64,000 nt of DNA from Dryococelus australis (taxonomy: Eukaryota > Arthropoda > Insecta > Phasmatodea > Phasmatidae), in contig CM057009.1 of NCBI GenBank assembly GCA_029891345.1, forward strand, positions 296,477,466 through 296,541,465, in the 5' to 3' direction. Shown one piece after another: positions 42,517-42,620 of the stretch; position 1 is the stretch's first letter; the number at the start of each line of letters is the position of its first letter. Made by a program: the position numbers and the translations under genes. The notes beneath the pieces are model-generated. The model was given only the letters and a program-made list of their open reading frames with translations. It made no database searches and was not told the DNA's origin.

Positions 42517-42620
42517 CTTTATCGTTTTGTTCTGTAATCTGAGCCCATTCAGTGTGTTGATAGCTTTCTCGGCATCTTCGGGCCGATGGTAGTTTACAAA
42601 CCCGTAACCCAGGCTCTGGC
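42517..42620 (-). CDS. elav/fne-like: ELAV/Hu-family RNA-binding protein, RRM1 internal exon
   Basis: A 104-bp internal exon that encodes the second half of the first RNA-recognition motif. The peptide begins [10 protein letters not shown], which includes RNP1 (GYGFVNY). It continues [17 protein letters not shown] (helix 2) and ends LQNKTIK (beta 4). ELAV/Hu proteins bind U-rich RNA and control neuronal splicing, polyadenylation and stability. The acceptor on the minus strand is tgtttgtttcag before GCCAGAGC, and the donor is ACGATAAAG then gtaatt. The exon starts in phase 1 (completing a glycine or similar codon) and ends in phase 0. Its length and boundary (TIK then V) match those I recall for vertebrate ELAVL genes. 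The peptide most resembles insect fne/ELAV-like proteins, but elav and Rbp9 cannot be excluded from 34 residues. No stop or frameshift is present, unlike every transposon frame here. The neighbouring exons were not found, so the flanking introns extend past the window on both sides. Confidence 0.93.

Follow-up and report, generated by a model that had tools for sequence, protein, structure and literature searches.

An intact-looking ELAV/Hu gene with very long introns predicted around a 104-bp exon in the stick insect Dryococelus australis

The window analysed here is a stretch of 64,000 nucleotides of the Dryococelus australis genome with a G+C content of 37.9%, and it holds the predicted coding exon 2 of an ELAV/Hu gene, encoding the second half of RRM1 (window 42517..42620, minus strand, 104 bp; G000:C17:296519982-296520085). 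Reading the minus strand, the exon opens with GCCAGAGCC directly after tttgtttcag, a pyrimidine-rich acceptor (tttgtttc before the AG at window 42621..42622), and closes with ACGATAAAG directly before gtaatt, whose GT donor lies at window 42515..42516. It contains 34 whole codons and 2 bases that finish a split Gly codon, so that its 5' junction (J2) is in phase 1 and its 3' junction (J3) in phase 0. GYGFVNY, which we take to be the RNP1 motif, is found close after the exon start. The first-pass annotation had claimed a 104-bp exon here with intact splice signals and an open RNP1 frame, and had implied the minus strand by counting 42.5 kb downstream and 21 kb upstream of it; the AG, the GT and the 34 codons, read directly, bear this out.

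Against PDB chains, phmmer matched exon 2 to 136 sequences with E values of 1 or less, and the closest among the best 60 were HuD (E 4.3e-18) and HuC (4.5e-17), followed by a PABP chain in third place (1.5e-15) and HuR (2.6e-15). PABP chains score high for exon 2, as well as for the RRM3 piece of the same gene, because several RRMs per chain are summed; the best single stretch of exon 2 reached 18.2 bits in the PABP chain compared with 50.8 in HuD. Judged by these sequence scores, the homology is far beyond chance, and with HuD as the best match the ELAV/Hu RRM1 identity proposed earlier can be retained. In the whole assembly (3,415,067,245 bases in 646 contigs), all 14 candidates for exon 2 were scored and 12 of them had an E value of 10 or less, namely exon 2 itself, a match of 85% (29/34) on contig C6, a Sxl-like match of 58% on C15, and nine others at E 0.028 or worse. 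Inside the window no second ELAV exon was detected by tblastn with human HuD and the joined C17 protein, as E values below 0.02 fell on exon 2 only; one HuD match elsewhere in the window (E 0.81) was set aside as noise. The exon had been called lone, which holds within the window but not on the contig, where it shares its strand with four more coding exons; it seems lone because the window is short and the introns are very long.

These other exons came to light in a genome search with the RRM_1 profile, which gave at least 123 matches (150 of 233 candidates scored) spread over contigs C1-C15 and C17, with none on higher numbers. Among them were further RRM pieces on the minus strand of C17, flanking the window on either side. 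Using small sequence fetches and tblastn with human HuD, we placed exon 1 (N-terminus plus the first RRM1 half) at C17:296779605-296779851 (247 bp), exon 3 (last part of RRM1 and beginning of RRM2) at C17:296454847-296455000 (154 bp), exon 4 from C17:296431881 down to 296431653 or 296431626 (229 or 256 bp) and exon 5 at C17:296429399-296429723 (325 bp), all on the minus strand; exons 4 and 5 supply the remainder of RRM2, the hinge and RRM3. The search for RRM exons beyond the window that had been suggested at first pass thus yielded exons 1, 3, 4 and 5. The five coding exons lie on one strand in the correct order and span 350 kb, GT/AG is present at all four joints, and the joined frame is free of stops from a putative start ATG to TAA, giving 352 or 361 aa. 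The introns are, as had been claimed for the surroundings of the exon, huge. Intron 1, whose 3' part fills window 42623..64000 (minus), measures 259,519 bp, a length that rests on contig coordinates because C17:296681001-296778800 (97.8 kb) is unread and 5 kb reads N. Intron 2, whose 5' part fills window 1..42514 (minus), measures 64,981 bp, intron 3 measures 22,965 bp, and intron 4 measures 1,902 bp if taken from the second exon-4 donor onward. The nearest other coding exon is therefore 65 kb away from the window exon.

Aligned with human HuD, the joined C17 frame shows three RRMs, a tandem pair followed beyond a hinge by RRM3, and 234 of 342 aligned positions are identical (68.4%). The best PDB matches of the RRM3 piece were chains named 'Protein elav', which we take to be the Drosophila protein (E 2.7e-35 and 2.8e-35), narrowly above a multi-RRM PABP chain that ranked third with three stretches summed (2.9e-35), and HuR chains followed from 5.8e-32. 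Since the C17 gene resembles ELAV/Hu sequences more closely than those of other RRM proteins, it is assigned to ELAV/Hu on this basis. Exon 4 offers two in-frame GT donors 27 bases apart (C17:296431626-296431653), the first giving 352 aa and the second 361 aa, and therefore the hinge would vary; variation of the hinge by splicing is described for the ELAV family in a 2008 survey (PMC2529313). A hinge microexon is described as 45 nt long in bees and in fne. When the 1,902-bp intron 4 was scanned for such a microexon at six lengths from 30 to 48 nt, three open candidates (39, 42 and 45 nt) were obtained, and those of 39 and 42 nt use one common donor (gtaagt).

A second ELAV gene is located on C6, with five coding exons at 82912-83083, 97142-97245, 99626-99779, 157589-157811 and 231488-231803 (172, 104, 154, 223 and 316 bp), 322 aa, and junction phases equal to those of C17. 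Both genes contain a 104-bp and a 154-bp exon, and human ELAVL exons are likewise 104 and 154 bp. The C17 and C6 proteins share 244 of 322 aligned residues, and the C6 protein is identical to human HuD at 210 of 319 aligned positions (65.8%). By the Nei-Gojobori method, exon 2 differs between the two genes by 14 changes at 22.3 synonymous sites and 5 at 79.7 nonsynonymous sites, and exons 2 and 3 together by 39.5 at 57.5 and 20.5 at 197.5, respectively; these counts should be read as a pattern and not as a date, because synonymous change is near saturation.

The exon plan of the C17 gene is of a well-documented kind. The 2008 survey drew on 11 species and 23 elav-related genes; in it, J2 and J5 interrupt a codon behind its first base and J3 separates two whole codons, at positions that align from vertebrates to invertebrates, with J2 and J5 just upstream of RNP-1 and J2 in RRM1 (PMC2529313). 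J2 (phase 1), J3 (phase 0) and J5 (phase 1) of C17 agree with this description, the comparison being one of phases and RNP-1 position, and we read the window exon as the J2-J3 exon because its phases fit and GYGFVNY comes close after its start. The old, vertebrate-like boundaries claimed at first pass fit the survey in these two respects, and an old plan shared with vertebrates is, going by that account, a result already published in 2008 (PMC2529313). Insect FNE/RBP9-type genes and human HuB/HuC/HuD (ELAVL2/3/4) have, like C17, three RRMs (two close together, a hinge, and RRM3) and the same J2, J3 and J5 phases as surveyed there, but C17 differs from them by introns of up to 259.5 kb. RRM3 is contained in a single exon in C17 and C6, as the survey reports for fne, whereas rbp9 has two (PMC2529313). 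In contrast to Drosophila elav, whose coding region lies in one exon and which the same source describes as thought to be retroposed and limited to Diptera, the C17 gene retains introns; with five coding exons each, neither C17 nor C6 belongs to the intronless (retroposed) elav type that occurs in Diptera and Lepidoptera. A limited literature search found no published account of an ELAV gene in a stick insect, though one may exist.

An intronless ELAV copy elsewhere, with the window exon as a retroposed fragment, was the finding that the first-pass annotation had named as speaking against its reading. No such copy was found when the genome was searched with exon 2, which gave 12 matches, and with exon 4, which gave 3, although only a limited set of candidates was scored and a strongly diverged copy could escape; these searches recovered C17, C6 and the C15 frame, apart from the nine weak exon 2 matches. 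The window exon as a retroposed fragment was rejected, since the flanking C17 exons were found. The C15 frame (L005:949-1845, corresponding to G000:C15:45045959-45046855, minus strand, 298 aa from stop to stop) was also rejected as an ELAV copy, as Sex-lethal chains match it better (E 3.4e-74) than Hu proteins do (7.8e-55). Sxl shares with C17 a related RRM1-RRM2 pair; however, the C15 frame has two RRMs in one coding exon, whereas C17 has three RRMs in five coding exons, and exon 2 of C17 matches Hu chains far better than Sxl. The C15 coding region in one exon comprises 263 codons from the first ATG, and an acceptor-like tract (tttttttttcatag) lies about 80 bases before this ATG, so that the 5' UTR may contain an intron. 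This was the only Sex-lethal-like gene recovered, and the genome searches, whose queries were ELAV exons, gave no spliced Sxl copy.

Together the two ELAV genes have eight coding introns, which measure 1.9, 2.4, 14.1, 23.0, 57.8, 65.0, 73.7 and 259.5 kb (C6 values by subtraction), with an average of about 62 kb and the longest in C17. Long distances are also seen elsewhere. For example, the RNA-polymerase large-subunit domain PF04997 gave seven matches, with gaps of 38.6 and 8.3 kb on C2 and of 2.8 and 9.2 kb on C12 (by subtraction), and the matches on each of these contigs probably form one gene; one match per set has an in-frame stop, perhaps a small intron. Because the polymerase genes also show long gaps between exon matches, the length of the C17 introns most likely reflects general intron growth and not a special device of the gene. 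In the genome paper, the annotated mean intron length of D. australis is given as 1,424 bp per transcript, and its authors considered this mean, close to that of Drosophila, as an argument for missing sequence (PMC10268593). The introns of the present loci suggest that the annotation overlooked or split genes whose introns are large, and we see an even chance that this mean is a strong underestimate and that gene finders have broken up genes at introns tens to hundreds of kb long; this view draws on four loci, two of them ELAV, and introns may be longer in neural genes than in most others. With a strict motif, no recursive splice sites were found on either strand of the window or of the fetched loci L019-L038, and a relaxed motif gave 2 sense and 4 antisense sites in 234 kb covering nearly all C17 ELAV intron, a ratio that says nothing on the removal of the long intron.

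Several other features were noted in the window. A broken retrotransposon of the Ty1/copia kind occupies window 2192-3976 (minus), with a reverse-transcriptase fragment (PF07727, Ty1/copia kind, E 2e-25) at 3241-3657 (minus) and a frame at 2192-2713 that by eye has the appearance of an RNase H end, without a Pfam match. In addition, a Tc5-type transposase DNA-binding fragment (PF03221, E 6.5e-6) lies at 5327-5707 (minus), and a frame at 16714-17154 (minus) resembles a transposase end by eye (FQHDGATPHF), again without a Pfam match; at E 0.01, six of the eight window frames tried had no match in Pfam. A minisatellite at 59434-59827 consists of about 3.3 copies of a 119-bp unit with 72% matches between copies, and at 42885-42950 (plus) the stretch around gaactcagttcaaggtgcgaggcaagtggtctgaccactacaccattgtggcc resembles, by eye, the reverse complement of a tRNA-derived repeat. 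Scanning the window against Rfam with gathering thresholds gave no matches. Of the 64,000 bases, 5,462 (exon included) are copied elsewhere within the 258,281 bases of 42 fetched loci that were searched.

Taken together, the window exon is almost certainly coding exon 2 in an ELAV/Hu gene that looks intact, carried by an insect with a large genome, and three other explanations were weighed against this reading. The exon might be a relic of a dead ELAV copy whose working counterpart is the five-exon gene on C6, and the greater total intron length of C17 would suit such a history. We consider this highly improbable, as all five C17 coding exons are intact and in frame with GT/AG joints, and the excess of change between C17 and C6 is strongly synonymous, though the comparison alone does not tell which branch was constrained. 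It is also very unlikely that the huge introns are an artefact of misjoins or repeat errors in the assembly and that the real gene is more compact. The Dryococelus genome is rich in repeats, reported at 63.29% (PMC10268593), and intron 1 contains the N bases and the unread 97.8 kb; on the other hand, introns 2 and 3 (65 and 23 kb) were read whole without an N, and the C6 paralogue and the polymerase genes also span long distances.

It is hardly conceivable that the exon is part of another RRM protein, such as Sex-lethal or PABP. The Sxl-like frame on C15 (58%) is the closest non-ELAV match in the genome, and PABP, PUB1, nucleolin and Sxl chains occur among the best 60 of 136 PDB matches. However, HuD at E 4.3e-18 stands against 1.5e-15 for PABP with its RRMs summed and 6e-8 for Sxl, the joined gene has three RRMs with 68% identity to HuD over 342 positions, and the Sxl-like gene on C15 is a separate one.

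For the preferred reading, an ELAV/Hu gene on C17, the pre-mRNA would be transcribed from the minus strand, and exon 1 would be joined to the window exon across the 259.5-kb intron and the window exon to exon 3 across the 65-kb intron. Exons 4 and 5 would then complete RRM2, the hinge and RRM3, and a protein of 352 or 361 aa would result depending on the exon-4 donor. ELAV/Hu proteins are described as binding U-rich RNA and, in neurons, as regulators of splicing and of the choice of poly(A) sites. The C17 transcript is probably made and spliced as modelled and, by analogy, would be expressed in neurons, and its protein would bind U-rich RNA and regulate neuronal splicing and poly(A)-site choice.

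In conclusion, the C17 gene and the plan of its exons follow a well-known type and leave knowledge of the ELAV family unchanged. We provide a complete coding-exon model of a 350-kb insect gene that automatic annotation likely breaks up. In addition, the gene represents a further insect case in which the ELAV junctions shared with vertebrates persist while introns reach hundreds of kb.
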